From Chloroflexota bacterium (lineage in GTDB: Bacteria; Chloroflexota; Dehalococcoidia; JACPQF01), in the NCBI GenBank assembly GCA_016190625.1, contig JACPQF010000109.1:1-41438 (forward strand): a stretch of 41,438 bases of DNA, given 5' to 3'. The position numbers and the translations under genes are program-made. The notes below the pieces were generated by a model. The model saw only the letters and a list, made by a program, of their open reading frames with translations, ran no database searches and was not told the DNA's origin. This document shows positions 9,605 to 39,239 of this stretch, in pieces (the first letter of the stretch is position 1; the number at the start of each line of letters is the position of its first letter).

Positions 9605-11017
9605 CTACGCGCTCCGCGCCTTCCTCGGCGCGATATGAATGGCCTGGCCGTTGACGTCGAGCGCCGCTTCCATGCTGACTTCTGACAATGTGGGATGGGC
9701 GTGGATGGCCTGGGCCACGTCCTCCACCGTGCCTTCCATGCTGATGGCCAGCGCCGCCTCGGCGATCAACTCTGTCGCGTGGGGGCCGGCGATGGCGATG
9801 CCGAGAATCTCACCGTACTCCTTGTCGGCGATGACTTTGACGAACCCGTCACGCTCGCCGATACCGAGAGCCTTGCCATTGGCCGAGAATGGAAAGCGGC
9901 CCACGGTGAGGTCCCGGCCCTGCTCGCGAGCCATCGCCTCGGTCAGGCCCACCCCGGCTATCTCCGGCCTGGTGTAAATGCAGCGGGGGACGGCCTTGTA
10001 GTCCATAGTCGCCTCTCGACCAAGGGCGTTCTCCACGGCCACCATCCCCTCGTGGGAGGCCACGTGAGCCAGCATCATCTTGCCGACCACGTCCCCTATA
10101 GCGTATATTCCCGGCACGCTCGTTCGCATTCGCTCGTCGACGATGATCCGCCCGCGCTCGACGCGAATGCCGATCTTGTCTAGGCTCAAGCCCCTGGTGT
10201 TGGGGACGCGTCCCACGCCGACAAGAACCAGATCGGCTCTCACTTCCTGCTGCTTGTCCTTCGGCTGAAGGACGGTGACGACCTTCTCGCCTCCCTCCGT
10301 CCTCACCTCCTTGACCGAGCTGCCGAGGTGCTGCGTAATGCTGCGTCGTCGGAAGCTACGCTGCAAGACCTGGCTCAGGTCGGCGTCCTCCATGGGAATG
10401 AGGCGGTCCATTAGCTCGACAATGGTCACCTGGCTACCGAAGCGGTTGAACATGTCGCCAAACTCCACGCCGATAGCGCCCCCGCCGATAATGAGCAGCC
10501 GCTTGGGCAAACTCTTCAAGGCAACCGCCTGATTGCTGTTGATCACGCCTTCGGCGTCGAGGCCGGGTATGGGCAGAGTTGCCGGGACCGAGCCGGTGGC
10601 GATTACGATGTTCCGGGCCGATATTATTTCTTCTTGCCCGTTGGTGACCTTGACCTGCCCCGGGGCGACGATGTCTCCCGACCCCCTCACCAGGCGCACG
10701 CCATTGGCGACGAAGAGTGATTCCACGCCGCTGCGCAACTGGCGAACCACGCCGTCTTTGCGGCTCATGGCCTGAGAGAGGTCGAAGGTGTATCCCTGAA
10801 CGCTGACGCCAAAATCCTTCGCCTCGCTCAGGTGGGAGAGTATGTCAGCCGAGGCGAGCAGGGACTTGGTGGGAATGCAACCCCAGTTGAGGCAGGTTCC
10901 TCCCACGTCCGCTTTTTCGACCAGCGTGACCGTGGCGCCAAGCCTGGCCGCGTGGATGGCGGCCACGTAGCCCCCGGGCCCGCCGCCGATGATCACGATG
11001 TCTTGAGTCTCAGTCAT
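9605..11017 (-). CDS. lpdA: Dihydrolipoamide dehydrogenase (E3)
   Basis: E3 reoxidises the dihydrolipoyl groups of the E2 core using FAD and NAD+. The start at 11017 is chosen over the longer ORF because GGAGGTAAAACA precedes this ATG and the protein then begins MTETQDIVIIGGGPGG, the FAD-binding Rossmann motif. The redox disulphide is C42/C47 in GGTCLNWGCIPTK. The NAD-binding motif is IIGGGAIGVEFGD, the second FAD motif ends in IYAIGDV, and the catalytic His-Glu pair lies in HAHPTLSE near the C-terminus. At 470 aa it is full length. It is the last gene of the E1 alpha-E1 beta-E2-E3 group and is separated from E2 by about 140 bases containing a perfect palindrome. Confidence 0.96.
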   Translation of the reverse strand: MTETQDIVIIGGGPGGYVAAIHAARLGATVTLVEKADVGGTCLNWGCIPTKSLLASADILSHLSEAKDFGVSVQGYTFDLSQAMSRKDGVVRQLRSGVESLFVANGVRLVRGSGDIVAPGQVKVTNGQEEIISARNIVIATGSVPATLPIPGLDAEGVINSNQAVALKSLPKRLLIIGGGAIGVEFGDMFNRFGSQVTIVELMDRLIPMEDADLSQVLQRSFRRRSITQHLGSSVKEVRTEGGEKVVTVLQPKDKQQEVRADLVLVGVGRVPNTRGLSLDKIGIRVERGRIIVDERMRTSVPGIYAIGDVVGKMMLAHVASHEGMVAVENALGREATMDYKAVPRCIYTRPEIAGVGLTEAMAREQGRDLTVGRFPFSANGKALGIGERDGFVKVIADKEYGEILGIAIAGPHATELIAEAALAISMEGTVEDVAQAIHAHPTLSEVSMEAALDVNGQAIHIAPRKARSA

Positions 11018-11086
11018 TGTTTTACCTCCATCTAAGGATCTATCGTCAGGTCGCCCTATCGTATCAATCGCAAGGGCGCCCAAACC

Positions 11087-11124
11087 GTAGGGGCGAATCC
11101 TTCCGCGGAAGGATTCGCCCCTAC
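11087..11124. repeat. 38-bp perfect palindrome (GTAGGGGCGAA family)
   Basis: The arm GTAGGGGCGAATCCTTCCG is followed immediately by its exact reverse complement. It belongs with the 28-bp palindromes at 25728, 25860 and 37477 by its shared GTAGGGGCGAA end, but has a different core. It lies between the E2 stop and lpdA start and could form a strong hairpin in the mRNA that changes the E2 to E3 expression ratio. Confidence 0.9.
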
Positions 11125-11159
11125 GCGTGTCTAGATGACATCTCTTAGGCCGCTGTTGC

Positions 11160-12422
11160 CTAAACCAGGAGCGCCGAAGGACGCTCCAGCAAATGTTTTA
11201 TGGCCCGCAGGAATTTGGCGGCGGGAACGCCATCGGCGACCCGATGGTCCCAGGTAAGGCTTAGGTAGAACGTCGGTCTGACGGCCAGTTGCCCGCGGAC
11301 GACCGCCGGTCGCTCCTCCATCCCACCGACCCCAAGGATGGCGCTTTGGGGCGGATTGATAATAGGCGTGAAGGCCATCACGTCGAAGGCGCTGAGGTTC
11401 GACAGGGTGAAAGTGCCGCCGGTTACCTCGTCGAGCGTGAGAGTTCCCTCTTGCGCCTTCTCGGCCACGGCGGCAAGCGCTCTGCTAAGCTCGACCAGCG
11501 TGAGCTTGTCCGCCTCGTGAACCACCGGCACGATGAGCCCGTCCTCTAGCGGCACGGCAACGCCGAGGTTCACGCGCTCGAAAACCTTGATATCGTCTCC
11601 CTCAATGGTAGAGTTGAAGATGGGAAAGCTTACCAAGGCCCTGATCAGGGCAGCGACGATAAGATCGTTATGGGAAATCCGGACACCAATGCGCTTCGCC
11701 TCGGCCATGAGTTGGCGATGCAGGTCGGACAGCGCTGTGGCGTCCACATCGGTGATGATCGTGAGCTGAGCGCTGGTCTGGAGGCTCCGCACCATATGGT
11801 CGGCGATGGTCTTGCGCTTGCCGGTGAGAGTAATGGTCTTCGCCGTTTCGTCTCGATCATTACTTAGGCCTCTGGCTGCGTCGGCGAACCCCCGGACATC
11901 GTCCTCGACGATCCGCCCCCCCGGTCCGGTTCCTTTGATCCTCGTTAGATCGACGCCCAGTTCCAGCGCCAGCCGTTTGGCAATGGGCGACGCGATGACC
12001 CTGGCGCTAGGGTAGAGGGTAGAGGGTTGAGGGTTGAGGGACGGGGGATGAGGGAAGGGGGATAAGGGCTCAGGGGCGGGGCTTTCCCCTCTACCCCCTA
12101 CCCTATACCCTATACCCTCTACCCTGTACCCTCTACCCTCTGCCCCATACCCTCTGCCCTCTCCTATTAGTGAGTGGTATTCTTCCTGTGAGGCGGCGAC
12201 GAGGCCGCAGGTGCCGCCGCAGGGGACGACTGTGCCCTCCTGAGAAGCAATGCGGAGGATGCCCGGTCCGGGCGCCTCCACTTCGTAGACGACCTTCTCG
12301 GTCTCTATCTCTAGCACTGGCGTTCCCGCTTCGACCGGCTGCCCCTCTTCTTTGAGCCAGCGCTTGATGGTTCCTTCGACCATGGTCATGCCCAGCTTTG
12401 GCATGGCGATCTTAGCAGCCAT
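11160..12422 (-). CDS. Dihydrolipoamide acyltransferase (E2) of 2-oxoacid/acetoin dehydrogenase complex
   Basis: E2 is the core acyltransferase of the complex. An N-terminal lipoyl domain (residues 1-78) carries the lipoylated Lys43 in EIETEKVVYEVEAP. A peripheral-subunit binding domain follows at about 140-175 (ASPIAKRLALELGVDLTRIKGTGPGGRI in part). The catalytic domain ends with LTWDHRVADG, keeping the active His and Asp. The linker at about residues 86-138 is unusual: instead of a normal Ala/Pro-rich linker it reads GYGAEGRGYRVEGIGYRVGG then a Pro/Ser-rich stretch, and it is encoded by a GGGTAGAG-type inverted repeat. The frame is intact, so the repeat is translated. Context with E1 alpha, E1 beta and E3 is decisive for the family, but the substrate (pyruvate, acetoin or branched 2-oxoacid) is not settled. 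Confidence 0.94.
   Translation of the reverse strand: MAAKIAMPKLGMTMVEGTIKRWLKEEGQPVEAGTPVLEIETEKVVYEVEAPGPGILRIASQEGTVVPCGGTCGLVAASQEEYHSLIGEGRGYGAEGRGYRVEGIGYRVGGRGESPAPEPLSPFPHPPSLNPQPSTLYPSARVIASPIAKRLALELGVDLTRIKGTGPGGRIVEDDVRGFADAARGLSNDRDETAKTITLTGKRKTIADHMVRSLQTSAQLTIITDVDATALSDLHRQLMAEAKRIGVRISHNDLIVAALIRALVSFPIFNSTIEGDDIKVFERVNLGVAVPLEDGLIVPVVHEADKLTLVELSRALAAVAEKAQEGTLTLDEVTGGTFTLSNLSAFDVMAFTPIINPPQSAILGVGGMEERPAVVRGQLAVRPTFYLSLTWDHRVADGVPAAKFLRAIKHLLERPSALLV
12010..12165. repeat. GGGTAGAG-type inverted repeat inside the E2 gene (copy 2)
   Basis: On the plus strand a G-rich arm of GGGTAGAGG and GGGTTGAGG units (12010-12079) is followed by a C-rich arm of TACCCTATACCC and CTCTACCC units (12085-12165). 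Together they could form a long imperfect hairpin. The repeat keeps the E2 reading frame open and encodes its interdomain linker. Confidence 0.9.
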
Positions 12423-13504: not shown

Positions 13505-14476
13505 TCAGTTCCCGCTGGGGGCGTAGACGTCCTCCAACAGGGCCTCCAGGGAAGCCGAGGGACTCTCCTCGGCAAATCTGACGGCGCTTTCGATGGCACC
13601 GGCGACTTCCTGATCGATGCTATCTGCCTGCTCGCCGCTCATCACTCCCAATTCGATGAGTCTATCGCGAAGACGCGGGATGGGGTCCTTGAGCTTCCAG
13701 GCATCGACCTCTTCCTGGGTGCGGTAGCGGCCGGGGTCGCCGATCGAGTGTCCGTAATGGCGATAGGTCTTGCACTCGACGAGGCTTGGACCGAGACCGA
13801 CACGCGCCCGACCAATCGCCTCTCTTGCCGCTTTGTATACGGCAAAGACGTCGTTGCCGTCGACGATGGCGCCGGGTATGCCATAGGCTCTGGCGCGATC
13901 GGCGACGTCGACGATGGTCTGGTGGCGGGCCTGGCTGGTGGACACTGCGTAGCCGTTGTTCTCGCAAACGAAGATAACGGGCGCCTTGAGCACTGCGGCC
14001 AGATTGACGGCTTCATGAAAAGTTCCCTGGTTGGAGGCGCCATCGCCAAAAAAGGCCACTGCCACCGCGTCGCTCTTTCTATACTTGGCAGCAAATCCGG
14101 CGCCGACGGCGATCGGTAGCCCGGCGCCGACGATGCCGTTGGCCCCCAGAATACCAACGCCCAGGCTGGCGATGTGCATCGAGCCTCCCTTGCCCTTGCA
14201 GTAGCCGGTGGATTTAGCGAACAGCTCGGCCATCATCTTGTCCAGGTCGCCACCCTTGGCAATTAGGTGGCCGTGGCCACGATGGGTGGAGCTGACGTAG
14301 TCGGCTGGCCCCAAGTTAGCGCAGACGCCACAGGCGACAGCCTCTTCGCCAGCATAGAGATGAACCGTGCCAGGCAGCTTGCCCTCGAGCATCAACCTAG
14401 CTACCCGCGTTTCGAACTGTCTGATGGTCTGCATCTTGGTGTACATCCAGATTAGAGCATCGCGGTCGACGTCCAT
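13505..14476 (-). CDS. TPP-dependent E1 component, alpha subunit (AcoA/PdhA-like)
   Basis: This subunit binds thiamine diphosphate and decarboxylates the 2-oxoacid (or cleaves acetoin). The TPP motif runs from FFGDGASNQGTFHEA to CENNGYAVST. The region STHRGHGHLIAKGGDLDKMMAELF with GYCKGKGGSMHIAS is close to what I recall of acetoin dehydrogenase AcoA, though many pyruvate dehydrogenases share it. The 323-aa length is normal. ATG follows GGGAGGAGAAG. It is the first enzyme gene of the E1 alpha-E1 beta-E2-E3 set. Lack of an acetoin regulator nearby leaves pyruvate as an equally likely substrate. Confidence 0.95.
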   Translation of the reverse strand: MDVDRDALIWMYTKMQTIRQFETRVARLMLEGKLPGTVHLYAGEEAVACGVCANLGPADYVSSTHRGHGHLIAKGGDLDKMMAELFAKSTGYCKGKGGSMHIASLGVGILGANGIVGAGLPIAVGAGFAAKYRKSDAVAVAFFGDGASNQGTFHEAVNLAAVLKAPVIFVCENNGYAVSTSQARHQTIVDVADRARAYGIPGAIVDGNDVFAVYKAAREAIGRARVGLGPSLVECKTYRHYGHSIGDPGRYRTQEEVDAWKLKDPIPRLRDRLIELGVMSGEQADSIDQEVAGAIESAVRFAEESPSASLEALLEDVYAPSGN

Positions 14477-14553
14477 GATCTTCTCCTCCCGTCATCTCAC
14501 TCGCCTGCTCAGAGAATAACCGCTGCTGCGCCGCCGAAGAGGCCCTCGACGGC

Positions 14554-14964
14554 CTAGCCCCCTGGCTTGAACTTGGGTATGGTTACCTCGTCGCTCAGCT
14601 TCTCGAAGGTCACCTCGAGGGGCATGTCCACGCTAAGCGCGGAGTTGGGGCAGTCTACCACATTGCTGACTATTCTGATTCCCTGCTCCAGCTCCACGGT
14701 GGCTACGTTATAGGGCACTTTGTCGGTGAAGCCCGGATGGTAAACCTGATGCATTATGGCGAACGAATAGAGCTTTCCTTTCCCGCTGACCTTGGCCCAT
14801 TCGATGTCGTTGTTGAGGCAGACATCACAGCGCAGCTTTACGGGCCACATGAAGGACCCGCAGGTCTTGCATCGCTGGAGCACCAGCTCGTGTCGCTTCG
14901 CCCCTTCATAGAAGGGCATCGATTTCTCGTCGGGAACCGGCATCGGTAGCTTGGAATCGGCCAT
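14554..14964 (-). CDS. Zn-ribbon OB-fold protein (DUF35 type, thiolase partner)
   Basis: An N-terminal helix is followed by a rubredoxin-like Zn ribbon with CKTCG and CDVC (Cys pairs about 15 apart), then an OB fold (GKLYSFAIMHQVYHPGF, YNVATVELEQGIRI). At 136 aa this is typical of DUF35/ChsH2-like proteins, which act as acyl-CoA-binding partners of SCP-x-type thiolases. A truncated thiolase C-terminus sits directly upstream on the same strand, so this gene has probably lost its partner. ATG lies behind AGAGGTGAT. It is 78 bases from the E1 alpha gene and may be co-transcribed with the dehydrogenase operon. Confidence 0.92.
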   Translation of the reverse strand: MADSKLPMPVPDEKSMPFYEGAKRHELVLQRCKTCGSFMWPVKLRCDVCLNNDIEWAKVSGKGKLYSFAIMHQVYHPGFTDKVPYNVATVELEQGIRIVSNVVDCPNSALSVDMPLEVTFEKLSDEVTIPKFKPGG

Positions 14965-15067
14965 GTTTTATCACCTCTGTAGCGGTTACCTGCGAACAAA
15001 ATTCGCAGGCTAATATTATTGCTATCCTGCGGATCTTAGCGGCAGGCAGCGTTTGCCAGACGAGCCA

Positions 15068-15352
15068 CTAAGACGGCTGGGTGCTTAAAATCAGGGTGGA
15101 ATGATAGGCGAGAACGCCGCCGTTACCGGACACGAGAACAAGGGCGTGTTTGGGCACCTGCCTCTCGCCCCCCTGGCCGCGGGTCTGGATGACGCCCTCC
15201 GATAGAGGCGTCATGCCCATCATGTAATAGGCGGAAAGCTCACCGCCGCCGGTGTTAGTAGGCAGGGACCCGCCGGGGCCGAGCTTGCCATCTTCGACGA
15301 ACGGCCCACCCTCGCCCTTCGGGCAATAGCCATAGTCCTCGAGCGTGACCAG
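15068..15352 (-). pseudogene. C-terminal remnant of an SCP-x-type thiolase
   Basis: From about 15352 the minus strand reads LVTLEDYGYCPKGEGGPFVE, then GSLPTNTGGGELSAYYMMGM and RGQGGERQVPKHALVLVSG. This is the last quarter of an acetyl-CoA acetyltransferase of the lipid-transfer type. Upstream of that point the ORF (to 15550) has no thiolase features, so roughly 300 residues including the nucleophilic Cys domain are missing. The stop codon and the neighbouring DUF35 gene are in the normal order, so this is the residue of a thiolase-DUF35 pair. It cannot be an active enzyme. Confidence 0.88.
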
Positions 15353-25678: not shown

Positions 25679-25727
25679 GTCCCAGCAGATAACCGCGAGC
25701 AAGACAACTCCGCGGGTGTGGCATAGC

Positions 25728-25755
25728 GTAGGGGCGAACGGCCGTTCGCCCCTAC
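25728..25755. repeat. 28-bp perfect palindrome (GTAGGGGCGAACGG family, copy 1)
   Basis: The arm GTAGGGGCGAACGG is followed at once by its exact reverse complement CCGTTCGCCCCTAC. It is identical to the copies at 25860 and 37477 and shares its ends with the 38-bp copy at 11087. It may be a mobile palindromic (REP/MITE-like) unit. Confidence 0.95.
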
Positions 25756-25859
25756 GCATATATGAGCCACGCGATCTTCTTGTCGAGCTGGGTTGCTTTC
25801 AACGAGCCGTCTCGCCCCGTGACTTCAAGGGATCGACTACAACGATTCGCACAGCGATC

Positions 25860-25887
25860 GTAGGGGCGAACGGCCGTTCGCCCCTAC
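25860..25887. repeat. 28-bp perfect palindrome (copy 2)
   Basis: Identical in sequence to the unit at 25728, with about 104 bp of unrelated DNA between them. Having two identical copies this close suggests recent duplication or repeated insertion. Confidence 0.95.
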
Positions 25888-25985
25888 GCGTTGGCGGCGC
25901 GGCCCGTGCCTCACCACAAGAAATAAGCTTGCTCGCTTAGTGTCGGTGCGAACTACTACAGACGTAGGCAGAAGAAATTAGATAG

Positions 25986-33321: not shown

Positions 33322-34904
33322 AGAAGCTAGTCGCTGCCGACGCAACAAGCCTAGCTGTCTGGCTGGCCAGCCTGGCGATCCTCGGTGTAAGCGCGATTCC
33401 CATCACGCAGCCCGGTTATATGGATGCTTACTACTACCAGCACGTGGCGACAAACCTGGCGACTGGCCGGGGATTGGTGGAGGACTACGTCTGGAACTAC
33501 CTTCCTCCGCCGGAGACACTGACTCATCCTAGCAATCTTTATTGGATGCCGCTGACGTCTCTGGCCCTGGCTCCCTTCTTCCAGTTGTTGGGGGACTCGT
33601 TCCGCGTCGCCCAGATGCCCTTTATTCTGTTTGCCTCTCTGTTTGTCCTCTTCACCTTCCGTCTGGCGATCTGGCTGACAGGGAATCGTCGACACGCCCT
33701 GGCGGCCTCCGCCCTGACTCTATTCAGCGGGTTCTACTTCGCCTACTGGACCTCGCCTGATAGCTTCGCCCTCTTTGGCCTGGCGGCCAATATCGCGCTG
33801 GTCGCAGGATTCAAGGCGGCGGGCATGTCACGCAAGTCGATTGGTCTCGCCGCGGGCGCGGGAGCTCTCGCCGCCTTGAGCCATATGGCAAGGGCAGATG
33901 GCGCGCTTGTCCTGGGGGCGATATTGTCAGCGATCGCCTTCCAGGCCTGGCGGGGAAGCGAAGCGGCAGGTGTGCGCCCTCGGCGTGAGAGAGTGATCGG
34001 CGGGGCGTTGGCCATCGGCGCGTGCCTCGCCGCCTACATCATAGTGATGTCTCCCTGGTTCATGCGGAGCTGGCAGCTAGTCGGCAGTTTTCTCCCCGCG
34101 GCCGGACTGAAAACGCTGTTTTTGAGGGAGTACAACGACTTCTTCACTTTCGGCAGGGACTTGACTTGGCAATCATATGCGTCATGGGGACTCTTGCCAG
34201 CATTGAGATCCAAGGTCGAGGCCCTCGGGACCAACATCATGGTCCTTTTCGGCATGGAGTACCATCTGGTTCCCTTCGCCCTTCTAGGGCTGTGGCATTT
34301 TCGCCGAAAAGCGGCGCTCGTGCCGTTTTTCATCTATGCCGCTATGCTCTATTTTACGATGTCGTTGCTGTTCACTTTTCCGAGCGGGAGGGGCAGCATG
34401 CTGCATTCGAGCGTGGTCTTTCTGCCCTGGCTGTCTGTCGCGGTGGTTGCAGGTCTGGACCAGTCGGTAGTCTGGGCAGGGCAGCGCCTTCGCCATTGGA
34501 AGGTGGGGCTGGCGCAGCGCAATCTCACCCTGGTGTTGGTCTTATTCGCCATCTTCTTTAGCGGCTTTCTCCTGATTCGGGAGGCAGGGAAAAGAGACGA
34601 GCGCTATCGCCACTACGGTGAGATCGCCGCCTGGCTCCGGGAGGCTGCTCCTGATAGCGTGATAATGATCGCTGATCCGCCGGGATATTACTACAGCAGC
34701 GGCAAGGGCAGCATCGTAATTCCGAGCGACGAGGTTGACTCCGTTCTCCTCGCCGCTAGGTGCTATGGCGCCTCGTACCTCGTTCTCGAGAAGGTTCATT
34801 CCCGGCCTCTCCATTCCATTTACTCGGGCGAGAGGACCGATCCGCAGCTAAGGAAGGTGGCCGAAATCGAAACGACAAAGATCTACAGGATCGGGGAGCA
34901 ATGA
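33318..34904 (+). CDS. GT-C type membrane glycosyltransferase (PMT/ArnT-like)
   Basis: The 528-aa protein starts at an ATG that overlaps the previous stop (ATGA at 33318), so the longer ORF start is wrong. After the first membrane segment it reads GYMDAYYYQHVATNLATGRGLVEDYVWNYL, with Asp in the usual GT-C loop position. About eleven membrane segments follow, including LTLVLVLFAIFFSGFLLI before the C-terminal extracytoplasmic domain (IAAWLREAAPDSVIMIADPPGYYYSSG). No repeat insertion is seen in it, in contrast to the next gene. Donor and acceptor are unknown; a polyprenyl-phosphate sugar donor is typical. Confidence 0.87.
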   Translation: MKKLVAADATSLAVWLASLAILGVSAIPITQPGYMDAYYYQHVATNLATGRGLVEDYVWNYLPPPETLTHPSNLYWMPLTSLALAPFFQLLGDSFRVAQMPFILFASLFVLFTFRLAIWLTGNRRHALAASALTLFSGFYFAYWTSPDSFALFGLAANIALVAGFKAAGMSRKSIGLAAGAGALAALSHMARADGALVLGAILSAIAFQAWRGSEAAGVRPRRERVIGGALAIGACLAAYIIVMSPWFMRSWQLVGSFLPAAGLKTLFLREYNDFFTFGRDLTWQSYASWGLLPALRSKVEALGTNIMVLFGMEYHLVPFALLGLWHFRRKAALVPFFIYAAMLYFTMSLLFTFPSGRGSMLHSSVVFLPWLSVAVVAGLDQSVVWAGQRLRHWKVGLAQRNLTLVLVLFAIFFSGFLLIREAGKRDERYRHYGEIAAWLREAAPDSVIMIADPPGYYYSSGKGSIVIPSDEVDSVLLAARCYGASYLVLEKVHSRPLHSIYSGERTDPQLRKVAEIETTKIYRIGEQ

Positions 34905-37396
34905 CAGGAAAGCGACGAGGGCTACTGGCCTACATCGCCGTGGTGCTCTGGATCACCGGGGTTTTCGCCGGGTACTATGCCGTTCACAAGCCAGTGGGTG
35001 CGGAATCGTTTCCCCCCATTGCCGCTGAGTTCGGCAGGCTCCTCCACCCCTGGTCGGCGTCCGCGCTTGCCGATGCCGCTTTGAATCTGGCTGCAGCGCT
35101 CTGGATCGGGCTTGTCAGCTTTGGGCTTGGCCGGCTCGCCTTGCGGGCGTTCCGGCTCGGTTTGACCCGGCTCGAAAGCAGGGTTCTGTCCACGTCTCTG
35201 GGCCTCGGCATCATCTCTCTCGTGAGCTTCTTTCTCGGTCTAGCCGGATTGCTTTATCCCTGGGTCTTCTACACTTTATTCGCCTTGGCTGGCGTTGCCA
35301 TGGTGGGAGCCGCGCTGAGGGAGCGCCCTCACCCTAACCCTCTCCGCGCCGGGGTACCCAGCCAGAGGGCTGGGTCAGCACCCGGGCGGGAGAGTGGATC
35401 CCCTCCATCTTCCCCCCAGGGGCGAACTCAGCATCCAAACCCTCGCTCTCCACAGGATGAGGGTGGGATGAGGAAACCGTTACCCTCTCCCTTCGGGAAA
35501 GGAGAGTCTGGGACGAGTAAACCGTTACCCTCTCCCTTCGGGAAGGGAGAGGGTAGGGTGAGGGTTCCCCTCAGTCCTCACCTCTGGAAGCCCAGTGCCA
35601 AAGCCATATGGGGATTCGCCCGGAATGATAAGAGCAGCTTTGCCCTCGCCGTGTTTGTCGCTTTGACGGAAACCCTCGCCCTGCTGGCTGCTCTGGCGCC
35701 GCCCTGGGCCTGGGATAGCCTCGTCTATCATCTCACCGGTCCGGGGCTGTATTTGGAGCAACATCGCATAACCAGTGGCCTGGACGGGATGCACTTCTAC
35801 TTCCCTCCCCTGGTCGAGCTGCTGTTCCTTGCCGGTGCGGCCATGAAGGGGCCGGTGGTGGCCAACCTGATCCATTGGGAGTTTGGTCTCCTTAGCGTGG
35901 GTGCGGTGTTCTGCCTTGCCCGACGATTCTCCGGCGTCAAGGTGGCCTGGCTGGCATCCGCCGTTCTCCTTTCGGCGCCCAGCGTGGTCATGTTATCGAG
36001 CAAAGCCTACGTCGATCTCGCCCTGTTGCTCTACCTGACCCTCGCCTTTGGCTGCGCAGTGGAGGGCCTTCGCTCCGGCGGGCGGAACTGGCTGCTTCTC
36101 GCCGTCGTCTTCGCCGGTTTTGCCGGAGGAATAAAGTATACGGGGCTGGTGGGACTGCTGGCCATCGGGGTGGCGGTTGCCCTCGAAATGGCGCTGGCCC
36201 GCCGTCCGGCTATCCTTCTCAAAAGGACGGCGTCTGCAGTGCGGAGCAAGGACGTGGAGGCTTCAGCAGGGGAGAGTCAGCGCGGTTGCCCGGCTAAAGC
36301 CTCAGCGTCCAGCGTTGGGAAACCGGATGCCGTCCTTCCGAGAAGGATAGCCGGAGACCGCCGCAACAATTGGCGCCTCATTGCCGGCTGCCTCCTCGTG
36401 GCAGCCGTTCTGGCGTCCCCCTGGTACATCAAGAACCTTTTCTTCACCGGGAACCCTTTCTATCCCTTCGTCTTTGGCGGGGAATTCTGGGATTCCTTCC
36501 GAGCCGAATGGGTGGCGCGGGCGGGAAGCGGGCTCGCCGGCCAGCCCTGGCGTCTTATCGTCGCTCCCCTGGAGATGACCGTTCTCGGCGTCGAGGGTGG
36601 GTGGGGATACCAGGCGACCATCGGACCGCTATTCCTCGTTCTGCTGCCTCTGATTAGGGTAGAGGGTAGAGGGTTGAGGGTAGAGGAGAGGGCGGGTCTG
36701 GTGTTTGTGGGGGTTCTTTACGTGGTGTGGTTGGTGGGGGTTGCCCAGTCGGAGCTGCTGCGTCAGACTAGGCTGCTGTTTCCCGCGTTCGGCGTATTGT
36801 CTGTTTTCGTCGCCTCGGGTGTTTGCCGCCTAACTGCAGTCGGCGGGCTGAATCCCCGCCGGTTTGTTGGGGGCGCCATCGCTTTGGCGTTGGTCTTGTC
36901 CCTGACGGCGCAGACCGTCGCTTTTCTGGCCGATTCTCCGCTACCATTTGTCGCAGGAGCGGAGTCTCAGGAGGATTATCTGGCCCGCCACCTAAACGGG
37001 TACTACGAAGCGGCGGAGTTCGTGAACAACAGTCTCGGCGAGGACGCCCGGGTCTACTTCCTCTGGGAGCCGCGGTCCTACTACTTCCGGCGGCCCGTCC
37101 AGCCTGATACCATTCTGGACAACTGGCGCCACCTGCTGTTCCTGTACGGGGATGGCGACGCCATTGCGGCGGCCCTCCGGCGGCAGGGGTACACCCACGT
37201 TCTCGTCAATCTCGACGGCCTGCGCTACTTCGGCGAGGAACCGCATCGAGAGGTGGGGAAGGGCGACCGCGACGCCCTGGTGGCGTTCGAAAAGCGCCAT
37301 TTGAAATTGGTATACGGGAATCAGGTGGAGGCCATTCATTTGACCGGGCAGGCGCAGTCCGGCCCCGGCTTCTATTCGCTGAGCAGATTGGAGTAG
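34901..37396 (+). CDS. GT-C type membrane glycosyltransferase enlarged by three in-frame repeat insertions
   Basis: The 831-aa protein starts at an ATG overlapping the previous stop (ATGA). Catalytic-type loop APPWAWDSLVYHLTGPGLYLEQHR lies near residues 265-290, membrane segments are numerous, and the C-terminal domain reads YLARHLNGYYEAAEFVNNS. Three stretches look foreign: residues about 142-222 (PHPNPLRAGVPSQRAG, LPSPFGKGES), 436-485 (AILLKRTASAVRSKDVEAS) and 585-598 (RVEGRGLRVEERAG). Each lies between membrane segments and is encoded by a different repeat family. Without them the protein would be about 680-690 aa, closer to the family norm. The frame is open throughout, so the insertions are translated unless spliced by an unknown means. 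Confidence 0.87.
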   Translation: MTGKRRGLLAYIAVVLWITGVFAGYYAVHKPVGAESFPPIAAEFGRLLHPWSASALADAALNLAAALWIGLVSFGLGRLALRAFRLGLTRLESRVLSTSLGLGIISLVSFFLGLAGLLYPWVFYTLFALAGVAMVGAALRERPHPNPLRAGVPSQRAGSAPGRESGSPPSSPQGRTQHPNPRSPQDEGGMRKPLPSPFGKGESGTSKPLPSPFGKGEGRVRVPLSPHLWKPSAKAIWGFARNDKSSFALAVFVALTETLALLAALAPPWAWDSLVYHLTGPGLYLEQHRITSGLDGMHFYFPPLVELLFLAGAAMKGPVVANLIHWEFGLLSVGAVFCLARRFSGVKVAWLASAVLLSAPSVVMLSSKAYVDLALLLYLTLAFGCAVEGLRSGGRNWLLLAVVFAGFAGGIKYTGLVGLLAIGVAVALEMALARRPAILLKRTASAVRSKDVEASAGESQRGCPAKASASSVGKPDAVLPRRIAGDRRNNWRLIAGCLLVAAVLASPWYIKNLFFTGNPFYPFVFGGEFWDSFRAEWVARAGSGLAGQPWRLIVAPLEMTVLGVEGGWGYQATIGPLFLVLLPLIRVEGRGLRVEERAGLVFVGVLYVVWLVGVAQSELLRQTRLLFPAFGVLSVFVASGVCRLTAVGGLNPRRFVGGAIALALVLSLTAQTVAFLADSPLPFVAGAESQEDYLARHLNGYYEAAEFVNNSLGEDARVYFLWEPRSYYFRRPVQPDTILDNWRHLLFLYGDGDAIAAALRRQGYTHVLVNLDGLRYFGEEPHREVGKGDRDALVAFEKRHLKLVYGNQVEAIHLTGQAQSGPGFYSLSRLE
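35325..35565. repeat. CCCTCACCCTAACCC-type element inside a glycosyltransferase gene
   Basis: The outer ends CCCTCACCCTAACCCTCTCC and GGAGAGGGTAGGGTGAGGG are inverted repeats. Inside are an ACCCAGCC/GGCTGGGT hairpin and two direct copies of ACCGTTACCCTCTCCCTTCG. It resembles the dispersed CCCTCACCCTAACCC elements of many bacterial genomes. It adds about 80 residues to the protein. Confidence 0.88.
36206..36354. mobile_element. MITE-like element with 29-bp terminal inverted repeats inside a glycosyltransferase gene
   Basis: The left end CCGGCTATCCTTCTCAAAAG is mirrored by the right end ending in CGAGAAGGATAGCCGG, with about three mismatches over 29 bases. An inner pair, GGACGTGGAGGCTT and AAGCCTCAGCGTCC, adds a second stem. 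At 149 bp it cannot encode a transposase. No clear target-site duplication is visible. It is read through in frame. Confidence 0.85.
36656..36693. repeat. GGGTAGAG-type G-rich repeat inside a glycosyltransferase gene (copy 3)
   Basis: TAGGGTAGAGGGTAGAGGG followed by TTGAGGGTAGAGGAGAGGG, the G-rich arm only. It encodes RVEGRGLRVEERAG, much like the YRVEGIGYRV encoded in the E2 linker by the same family. Confidence 0.88.
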
Positions 37397-37400
37397 CCTC

Positions 37401-39239
37401 GTGAGGCAGGCGGCGACTCAAGATTCTTATCTAACGGCATGGTTCAGGAGAGGCAAAGGTGGCGGTAGCGTTCACCGTAGGGGCGAACGGCCGTTCGCCC
37501 CTACTCGTCGTGAGTCAAGGCCGCTGATTTGTCCCACAACTGTAAACCCGTCGCTAAACCGCGACCCTCGAGCAGAAACCGGTCGTTGGCTTGTCGCACC
37601 GGCCCTTGCCCTCGGTCTGGTCCTTCGCCTCCTCGACCTCGGCGGGCGCAACACCTGGTATGACGAGATCAGCAGCATTTTGTTCGCCGAGAAAGATCTG
37701 GCGACGATTGTCAGAGCCACGGCTGCCGACACGATGCCCCCTCTGTACTATTTCCTCCTCCACTTCTGGCTCCTTCTGGGCAACAATCTATGGGTCGCAC
37801 GGTCGCTCTCCGTGCTCCTTAGCGTGGGAACGATTGTCGTGGCCTTCGCCATCGGCCGGCGTTTGTTCGGGGCCAGGGTAGCCCTGATCGCCTCGCTTCT
37901 CGTGGCCCTGAATCCCTTTCAGATCTACTACGGGCAGGAGGTGCGCATGTATTCGCTCCTCGCCCTATCGCAGTTGCTCGCCATCTACTTTCTCCTCCGA
38001 TGCCTGGATAGTAGCAGTTTCGGGAACTGGACGGGCTTCGCCCTCAGCCAGAGCGTGGCCATGTACACCCACAATGCGGCGTTCTTATCGCTGGCCACTC
38101 TGGATGTTCTGGCGCTGGGGATATGGTGGCTCTTCCATGTTCGTCATGCGGCAACCAGATCCGGATTAACCGAACAGGTTACGGCGTCAACGGATATTCA
38201 ACGGATAAACGGATGGATGCAGGCCGGCTATCAGGTTATCCGTTGCTCAAATCCGATGACGCCATCTCCACGTGGCCTATCGAGTCTCGTCGGTCCTTCT
38301 GTGGAAGGACGGTCCGTCCCGCTTATCAAAGACCTGATCCTCGCCAATCTGTCCATCGCGGTGCTCTTCCTGCCCTGGCTTTTCTACTTGCCCGGCCAGT
38401 TGGCGAAGGTGACCCGCGCTTTTTGGACCCAAACGCCGGGGGTAGCCGAGGTTGTCAGGTCGATCGTGGTCTTCACCTTCAACCTTCCCAGCCCCACGCC
38501 CTGGTCCTTTCCTATCCTTCTGGCTGTGAGCCTTCTCTTGTCCGCATTGGTGGTCTACTCCATCGGCAAGGCTGTACGGCCGGCGGGACGGGAGTTCCAG
38601 GCGCTCCTCTTCTTTGCCACAGTCTGCTTCTCAGCCCCGATTGTGCTCGCCGTGCTGGTCTCCCTGGTGAGGCCGATCTACGTGGAGCGGGTCCTCATCG
38701 CGCCTTCGATTCTCTATCTAATCCTCCTGGCCTGGGCAGCGGAGCGACTGCGGCCGCGCTTCATGGCGCCCGTCTTGCTCGTGCCGGTGATACTCGTCTC
38801 CGCCTGGTCCCTCCTGGCCTACTATCAATACGATGGGTTTCCCCGGGTCGCCTTCCCCCGGGTCGTAGATTCCTTGAAGGACAGCGTGCAGGCCGGCGAC
38901 GTTATCGTCCACGACAACAAGCTCACCTTCTTTCCTGCCTATTACCTGAGGCGCGACCTTCCACAGCGGTTCCTTCCCGACCCTGACTGGTCCATGAACG
39001 ATACCCTTGCCGGGCAGACGCAAGACGCGCTGGGATTGAGAGCGAGTGCGCTCGCGGAGGCCGTCGAGGGCAAGTCGAGGGTATGGTTCGTGGTGTTCGA
39101 AAAGTCCCTGACCGAGGCAAGAGAGCAGGGCAGGGCCAACGAGAACGTGGAATGGCTGGACAGCCGGCTCCAGTTGGCGAGCAAACAGAGCTTCGGCGAT
39201 CTATCAGTCTATCTGTACACGAGGATATCCAACCCTTGA
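37401..39239 (+). CDS. GT39/PMT_2-like membrane glycosyltransferase with two in-frame repeat insertions
   Basis: The 612-aa protein begins at a GTG with GGAG seven bases upstream, four bases after the previous stop. There is no other ATG, GTG or TTG in frame before the catalytic loop NTWYDEISSILFAEKDL. Motifs follow the PMT_2 pattern: WYDE, DTMPPLYYFLLHFW, then YYGQEVRMYSL. The N-terminal tail (residues about 26-35, GERPFAPT) is encoded by the 28-bp palindrome. Residues about 261-288 (STDIQRINGWMQAGYQV) are encoded by a second repeat. About twelve membrane segments precede a C-terminal extracytoplasmic domain. It is paralogous to the last gene of the window. Confidence 0.88.
   Translation: MRQAATQDSYLTAWFRRGKGGGSVHRRGERPFAPTRRESRPLICPTTVNPSLNRDPRAETGRWLVAPALALGLVLRLLDLGGRNTWYDEISSILFAEKDLATIVRATAADTMPPLYYFLLHFWLLLGNNLWVARSLSVLLSVGTIVVAFAIGRRLFGARVALIASLLVALNPFQIYYGQEVRMYSLLALSQLLAIYFLLRCLDSSSFGNWTGFALSQSVAMYTHNAAFLSLATLDVLALGIWWLFHVRHAATRSGLTEQVTASTDIQRINGWMQAGYQVIRCSNPMTPSPRGLSSLVGPSVEGRSVPLIKDLILANLSIAVLFLPWLFYLPGQLAKVTRAFWTQTPGVAEVVRSIVVFTFNLPSPTPWSFPILLAVSLLLSALVVYSIGKAVRPAGREFQALLFFATVCFSAPIVLAVLVSLVRPIYVERVLIAPSILYLILLAWAAERLRPRFMAPVLLVPVILVSAWSLLAYYQYDGFPRVAFPRVVDSLKDSVQAGDVIVHDNKLTFFPAYYLRRDLPQRFLPDPDWSMNDTLAGQTQDALGLRASALAEAVEGKSRVWFVVFEKSLTEAREQGRANENVEWLDSRLQLASKQSFGDLSVYLYTRISNP
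37477..37504. repeat. 28-bp perfect palindrome within the N-terminal coding region (copy 3)
   Basis: Identical to the units at 25728 and 25860. It lies 76 bases after the only usable start codon of the glycosyltransferase gene, so it is translated as RRGERPFAPT. A hairpin this strong so near the start could lower translation. Confidence 0.95.
38183..38263. repeat. AACGGATAAACGGATGG-type inverted repeat inside a glycosyltransferase gene
   Basis: The left end GGCGTCAACGGATATTCAAC is mirrored by the right end TTGCTCAAATCCGATGACGCC with small gaps. About 30 bases later a GTCCTTCTGTGGAAGGAC mini-palindrome (38293-38310) follows. Both are read in frame in a loop between membrane segments. It resembles the lgt/lpdA terminator repeat at 9531. 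Confidence 0.8.

Follow-up and report, generated by a model that had tools for sequence, protein, structure and literature searches.

Palindromic repeats of several families probably add disordered segments to the proteins of a Chloroflexota bacterium at tolerant sites

In-frame palindromic inserts in protein-coding genes are best known in Rickettsia, and also among the REPs of some other bacteria. As summarized in a review (PMC10969869, after Ogata et al. 2000, 2002), the RPEs of the Rickettsiales are palindromes of about 150 bp that lie in frame in unrelated genes and are predicted to be compatible with the fold of the host protein; several families occur per genome, similar peptides are found at different sites, and nearly half of the R. 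conorii copies are in genes. GTAG/CGTC REPs are mostly intergenic, with a minority in ORFs, often those of DNA replication and repair genes, and two Xanthomonas species each have a REP at roughly the same position of recB, but not the same REP (PMC3733652). MITEs with in-frame intragenic copies include ERIC, Coxiella QMITE1, and the Anabaena MITEs (review PMC10969869).

Here, we analyzed a stretch of 41,438 nucleotides from an uncultured Chloroflexota lineage (hereafter the window) together with further DNA of the same genome, and we conclude that mobile palindromes very probably keep adding floppy segments to the proteins of this bacterium at tolerant sites. This multi-megabase genome resembles the described cases, with in-frame palindromic inserts of several families in genes that include MutS, RecJ, DnaE, and QueA. 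The starting point was a glycosyltransferase gene (Table 1) in which the first-pass annotation had noticed three unrelated repeat elements within a single open reading frame, each between membrane segments and none introducing a stop. All three were located in one uninterrupted frame of 831 codons without a stop, and all lie between predicted helices. Further copies in the genome, a reversed-pattern control for the heptamer, and folding compared with shuffled sequences identify them as true repeats rather than chance. The protein matched the Pfam profile PMT_2 (E 2.5e-6, 28.3 bits, cut-off 26.1) as well as PMT, and an AlphaFold model built with 24 input sequences (mean pLDDT 81.9, pTM 0.84) had ArnT as its best PDB match (5f15, Foldseek E 5.9e-9). 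The ORF thus combines the profile match and the GT-C fold of ArnT/PMT-like enzymes, whereas its cytoplasmic-loop inserts are not a feature of that family. In the model, pLDDT fell below 50 only at residues 146-232 and 459-478, inside elements 1 and 2. Loop sidedness was assigned by counting helices from an assumed cytoplasmic N terminus; the loop with the conserved D272 was taken to be outside the cell together with the C-terminal domain, as in ArnT and in line with general knowledge of GT-C enzymes. With this topology, the three repeat segments probably occupy cytoplasmic loops, away from the catalytic face.

Table 1. Positions of the host gene and of the repeat features (window coordinates unless a locus is named)
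Feature	Position	Strand	Remarks
GT-C glycosyltransferase gene (PMT_2/ArnT-like)	34901..37396	+	831 aa, holds three repeat segments
Element 1, CCCTCACCC...GGGTGAGGG palindromic element, 239 bp	35326..35564	+	inverted arms 35326-35339/35551-35564
Two tandem 45-bp units within element 1	35459..35548	+	89% alike (repeat analysis)
Element 2, near-complete palindrome, 151 bp	36205..36355	+	30-bp inverted arms, 90% complementary
Inner palindrome of element 2	36250..36310	+	a shorter member of the GGACGnTGAGGCTTTAGCCGG...CCGGCTAAAGCCTCAnCGTCC family
Element 3, GGGTAGA GGGTAGA GGGTTGA GGGTAGA	36657..36684	+	four-unit array
Heptamer palindrome in dihydrolipoyl acyltransferase (E2) gene	12008..12141	-	in frame; aa 93-138 of 420
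DnaE gene with GGGTAGA palindrome in frame (two inserts)	L195:13570-15501		reads RVEGRGYRVEG...
MutS gene with GGGTAGA palindrome in frame	L194:12651-15368		reads RVEGRGYRVEG...
RecJ gene with GGGTAGA palindrome in frame	L165:9932-11731		reads RVEGRGYRVEG...
QueA gene with GGGTAGA palindrome in frame	L197:14147-15007		reads RVEGRGYRVEG...

Compared with the RPEs, this genome likewise holds palindromic repeats of several families that sit in frame in coding genes without disrupting them, a likeness of description. RPEs belong to the Rickettsiales, and the elements of this Chloroflexota lineage, with its nearest homologs in Chloroflexi MAGs, are not filed as such; moreover, one family here is a heptamer-array palindrome, three families meet in one gene, and only a minority of copies lie in genes, unlike the nearly half given for R. 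conorii. The elements resemble REPs in being mostly intergenic with a minority in ORFs, in the GTAGGGGCGAACGGCCGTTCGCCCCTAC family, which starts with GTAG and has one copy in a UvrD-like gene, and in the occupation of about the same site by different repeats, as in Xanthomonas recB and in the glycosyltransferase loops below. In the copies inspected, however, the GTAG/CGTC end tag of a 20-40 bp palindrome is absent from the GGGTAGA array and from the cores that copies of elements 1 and 2 share, and unlike REPs the three segments are longer or composite, elements 1 and 2 exceeding 20-40 bp; the GTAGGGGCGAAC family, separate from these, does start with GTAG. MITEs are short, non-autonomous, bounded by terminal inverted repeats, and in some cases joined in frame to host genes. 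Elements 1 and 2 share with them the short length and the terminal inverted repeats without a transposase gene; this likeness is one of ends and length.

Element 1 codes for about 80 aa missing from homologs. It is a CCCTCACCCTAACCCTCTCC ... GGGAGAGGGTAGGGTGAGGG palindromic element, translated as PHPNPLRAGVPS...GKGEGRVRV, and its ends or parts gave 73 matches in the genome at E<0.01, the query itself counted. Heads at C96 and C23 are 94% identical, and near-identical heads or tails lie at C96:26992-27177, C23:16142, C142:31203, C140, C74, and elsewhere; the head also occurs within a sulfotransferase-containing gene. A regular-expression search with GGGATAGCCGGACG returned mostly chance sites. 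Its right end here is GGGTAGGGTGAGG, one T less than the commoner GGGTTAGGGTGAGG, which in the glycosyltransferase frame would read GGT TAG. Folded as a single strand, the element scored z -6.73 against shuffles. Element 2, with a fold of -101 kcal/mol (z -8.15 against shuffles), codes for about 50 aa missing from homologs and is a composite in which a GGACG-TGAGGCTTTAGCC palindrome is nested in an outer palindrome built on GCCGTCCTTnnnGAAGGATAGCC. Copies of the family to which the inner palindrome belongs are usually about 80 bp and intergenic, and at least 12 longer intergenic copies of this GGACGTGGAGGCTTCAGC...GCTAAAGCCTCAGCGTCC palindrome were found in the sampled DNA. A UvrD-like gene holds a related copy in frame (L169:7023-7078), which reads DVEASAG as in the glycosyltransferase.

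A scan of GTDB genomes returned glycosyltransferase homologs mostly from Chloroflexi MAGs, with L082 (61% identity) and L085 (58%) aligning over the full length; these and a homolog at 40% identity lack elements 1 and 2. Aligned with L047/L083, L048/L098, L082, and L085, elements 1 and 2 appear as clean indels of about 80 and 50 aa, the pattern that the first-pass annotation had proposed to look for in all three segments. Element 3 does not: its loop, about 12 aa long here, measures about 10 aa in L083, 24 aa in L082, and about 83 aa in L085. The idea that the third repeat adds residues was therefore rejected, on the refuting condition set by the first-pass annotation itself, homologs without the array having loops about as long or longer. 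The total gain is consequently about 130 aa, from elements 1 and 2, and not the 145 residues first proposed. Empty sites for these two elements come from relatives at about 60% protein identity, too distant for a base-level duplication to be read. In a 59-sequence alignment, in which private inserts of at least 25 aa were counted with N-terminal extensions left aside, all 12 such inserts fell in loops that the above topology puts on the cytoplasmic side; the outer loops at 265-303 and 517-576 had none, and the C-terminal domain had short ones only. Several are other repeats. The GGGTAGA loop of L085 carries instead a CACGAAAAA-type array, whose core has 22 matches (at most one mismatch) in that genome; the element-2 loop of L110 holds a nested GTAGTGACGACTTCAGTCG palindrome of the GTAG...CTAC type; and the L090 and L091 homologs contain an (AATCTCC)n array and a CCTCCAAT-type array, respectively. 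The suggestion of insertion-tolerant loops in these enzymes is thus supported.

It is nevertheless too narrow, because members of the same families also occur, in frame, in genes of this genome that encode soluble core proteins, and for that reason an explanation specific to the glycosyltransferase was rejected. The genome search for copies within ORFs, a check proposed at the outset, found element families in frame in a range of proteins. The 19 mid-gene clusters fall in 17 genes, some of which were compared with homologs. Hosts include RecJ (IRVEGRGYRVERGDPSTLYPLPSTHYPLPSTL), MutS, DnaE, QueA, Mfd, two UvrD-like proteins, a GH38 mannosidase, CobD, CysN/C, a SAM hydroxide adenosyltransferase, Cas6, and the E2 acyltransferase. 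DnaE has two inserts, the second directly after the first two codons. Relatives of known structure have fewer residues across the inserts of RecJ (query 218/256, chain 211/220) and DnaE (query 495/549, chain 523/560), and in MutS and QueA the loops that hold the inserts are of variable length in relatives. In the genome of L082, QueA carries an in-frame CCCTCACCCCAGCCC...GGGAGAGAGGG palindrome in the same loop as the GGGTAGA palindrome of QueA here. The E2 element occupies the linker between the lipoyl domain (aa 4-69) and the E3-binding domain (aa 142-177).

The heptamer pair GGGTAGAGGGTAGAG occurs 230 times in the genome (at most one mismatch, overlaps counted) versus 0 for the reversed-pattern control. 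In a perfect GGGTAGA array, each forward frame meets a TAG every 21 nt, and the third unit of element 3 has TTG where GGGTAGA would give an in-frame TAG. Across in-gene arrays on the sense strand, none of the 14 heptamers at the TAG-reading phase is GGGTAGA, their places being taken by GGGTATA (7), GGGTACA (3), GGGTTGA (2), and GGGTGGA (2); GGGTAGA makes up 21/34 heptamers at the other phases of these arrays and 76/162 in intergenic arrays. Among intergenic heptamer palindromes (n=12), 12% of frames are open, compared with 59% for random stretches of equal length. The heptamer element is specific to this lineage: among 294 genomes of the class, the window's own was the only one with the longer array, and the shorter form was absent from all 8 genomes examined that hold homologs. 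A literature search on heptanucleotide repeats with Chloroflexi gave no match. GGGTAGA arrays form the end of one contig (G000:C114) and the start of another (G000:C66), which makes it probable that the assembly breaks at these repeats.

To describe the distribution of the elements, we used the window plus 60 stretches, together 1.01 Mb of the same genome, most of which were picked for element copies, so that the counts are not unbiased per-genome rates. Clusters were built from 12-mers seen at least 12 times (273 in the real sequence vs 0 in third-order random sequence). Of the 206 repeat clusters in the sample, 147 fell between genes, 30 at the edge of a gene, 8 close to a gene end, and 21 in mid-gene; mid-gene copies are thus about 10% of those sampled in DNA that is 83% coding, and elements are depleted in genes. 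Two mid-gene clusters (L187:5608-5675 and window 9747-9796) were set aside as apparent conserved coding sequence. Genes were called with a home-made caller that requires an open frame, so the openness of in-gene copies is partly built in. We therefore searched for genes split by elements; none was seen among the few sites inspected by eye, where 12 non-genic or edge copies with coding flanks lie between separate genes. The data are one draft genome, 64.9% complete in 160 contigs, some of which end in these repeats. One Y1-type transposase gene was found in it, and no link between this gene and the repeat families was established.

We consider it very probable that selfish palindromes have spread widely and survive in genes only where they keep the host frame open and lie in a permissive loop. 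Several unrelated small palindromic non-coding repeat families have multiplied in the genome; they would insert widely, in a spread that would be recent, and in-gene copies would persist only in loops or linkers that tolerate extra residues. Purifying selection would remove most in-gene copies, which would explain why most copies are intergenic. In the glycosyltransferase, three copies would have accumulated in three loops between membrane helices, adding about 130 mostly disordered residues on the predicted cytoplasmic side and leaving the catalytic side untouched. The segments are presumably translated and retained, in a gene that is probably functional. More tentatively, and with some doubt on our part, the families may jointly form a genome-wide source of disordered segments that repeatedly hits the same permissive loops across lineages, with the heptamer's in-frame TAG replaced by TAT, TAC, TTG, or TGG, and their in-gene survival may reveal how well core proteins, including those of replication and repair, tolerate insertions.

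The first-pass annotation had also allowed that the repeats are kept for changing the loops. Such adaptive inserts, acting through regulation, partner binding, or mRNA structure, would fit the presence of three in a single gene, the strong hairpins that elements 1 and 2 would form in mRNA, and the recurrence of replication and repair hosts (RecJ, MutS, DnaE, Mfd, and two UvrD-like proteins, in a plain tally), which is also a feature of published intragenic REPs (PMC3733652). Yet the same loops, length-variable in any case, hold different unrelated repeats or none in other lineages, the inserts are predicted to be disordered and to lie on the non-catalytic side, and elements are depleted in genes, so we regard this as unlikely. 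Strong hairpins, near-complete palindromes, and core genes among the insertion sites might suggest that the mature protein lacks the elements, through self-splicing, protein splicing, or programmed bypassing. Removed elements need not stay open in the host frame, however, whereas every in-gene copy found is open, and where GGGTAGA would give an in-frame TAG the heptamers have been changed; the encoded inserts matched no splicing domain in Pfam, and we give removal or bypassing next to no credence. The draft state of the genome and the array-terminated contigs C114 and C66 would be compatible with unrelated pieces joined by repeats, or with a decaying non-functional pseudogene. Against both, the N-terminal, middle, and C-terminal parts of the glycosyltransferase follow the order seen in single homologs, in one frame free of stops and conserved to the C terminus, and the pattern recurs in many independent genes, including core genes that are normally single-copy, which makes misassembly or decay very improbable.

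With insertion followed by survival at permissive loops as the preferred reading, each in-gene copy that has survived serves as a natural test of insertion tolerance, and relatives, when compared, have the same loops occupied by different repeats. Such segments should not be taken for functional domains, and they can disturb gene calling and assembly.

Several smaller observations were made along the way. On L184 (G000:C12), a Cas6-like gene (14025-15113) has a mid-gene heptamer element, and several neighbouring genes have further copies inside them or at their ends. A further short element is translated as DRLGLRDRVGL, in an identical frame, in two unrelated genes, at L204:17637-17669 (CysN/C) and L177:4568-4599 (a SBBP-repeat protein). 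Lastly, GTAG-tagged, REP-like palindromes of the GTAGGGGCGAA...TTCGCCCCTAC type are intergenic in the window at 37475-37504, 25726-25757, 25856-25889, and 11085-11126, and elsewhere a UvrD-like gene contains one copy of this type in frame, at L169:2305-2336.
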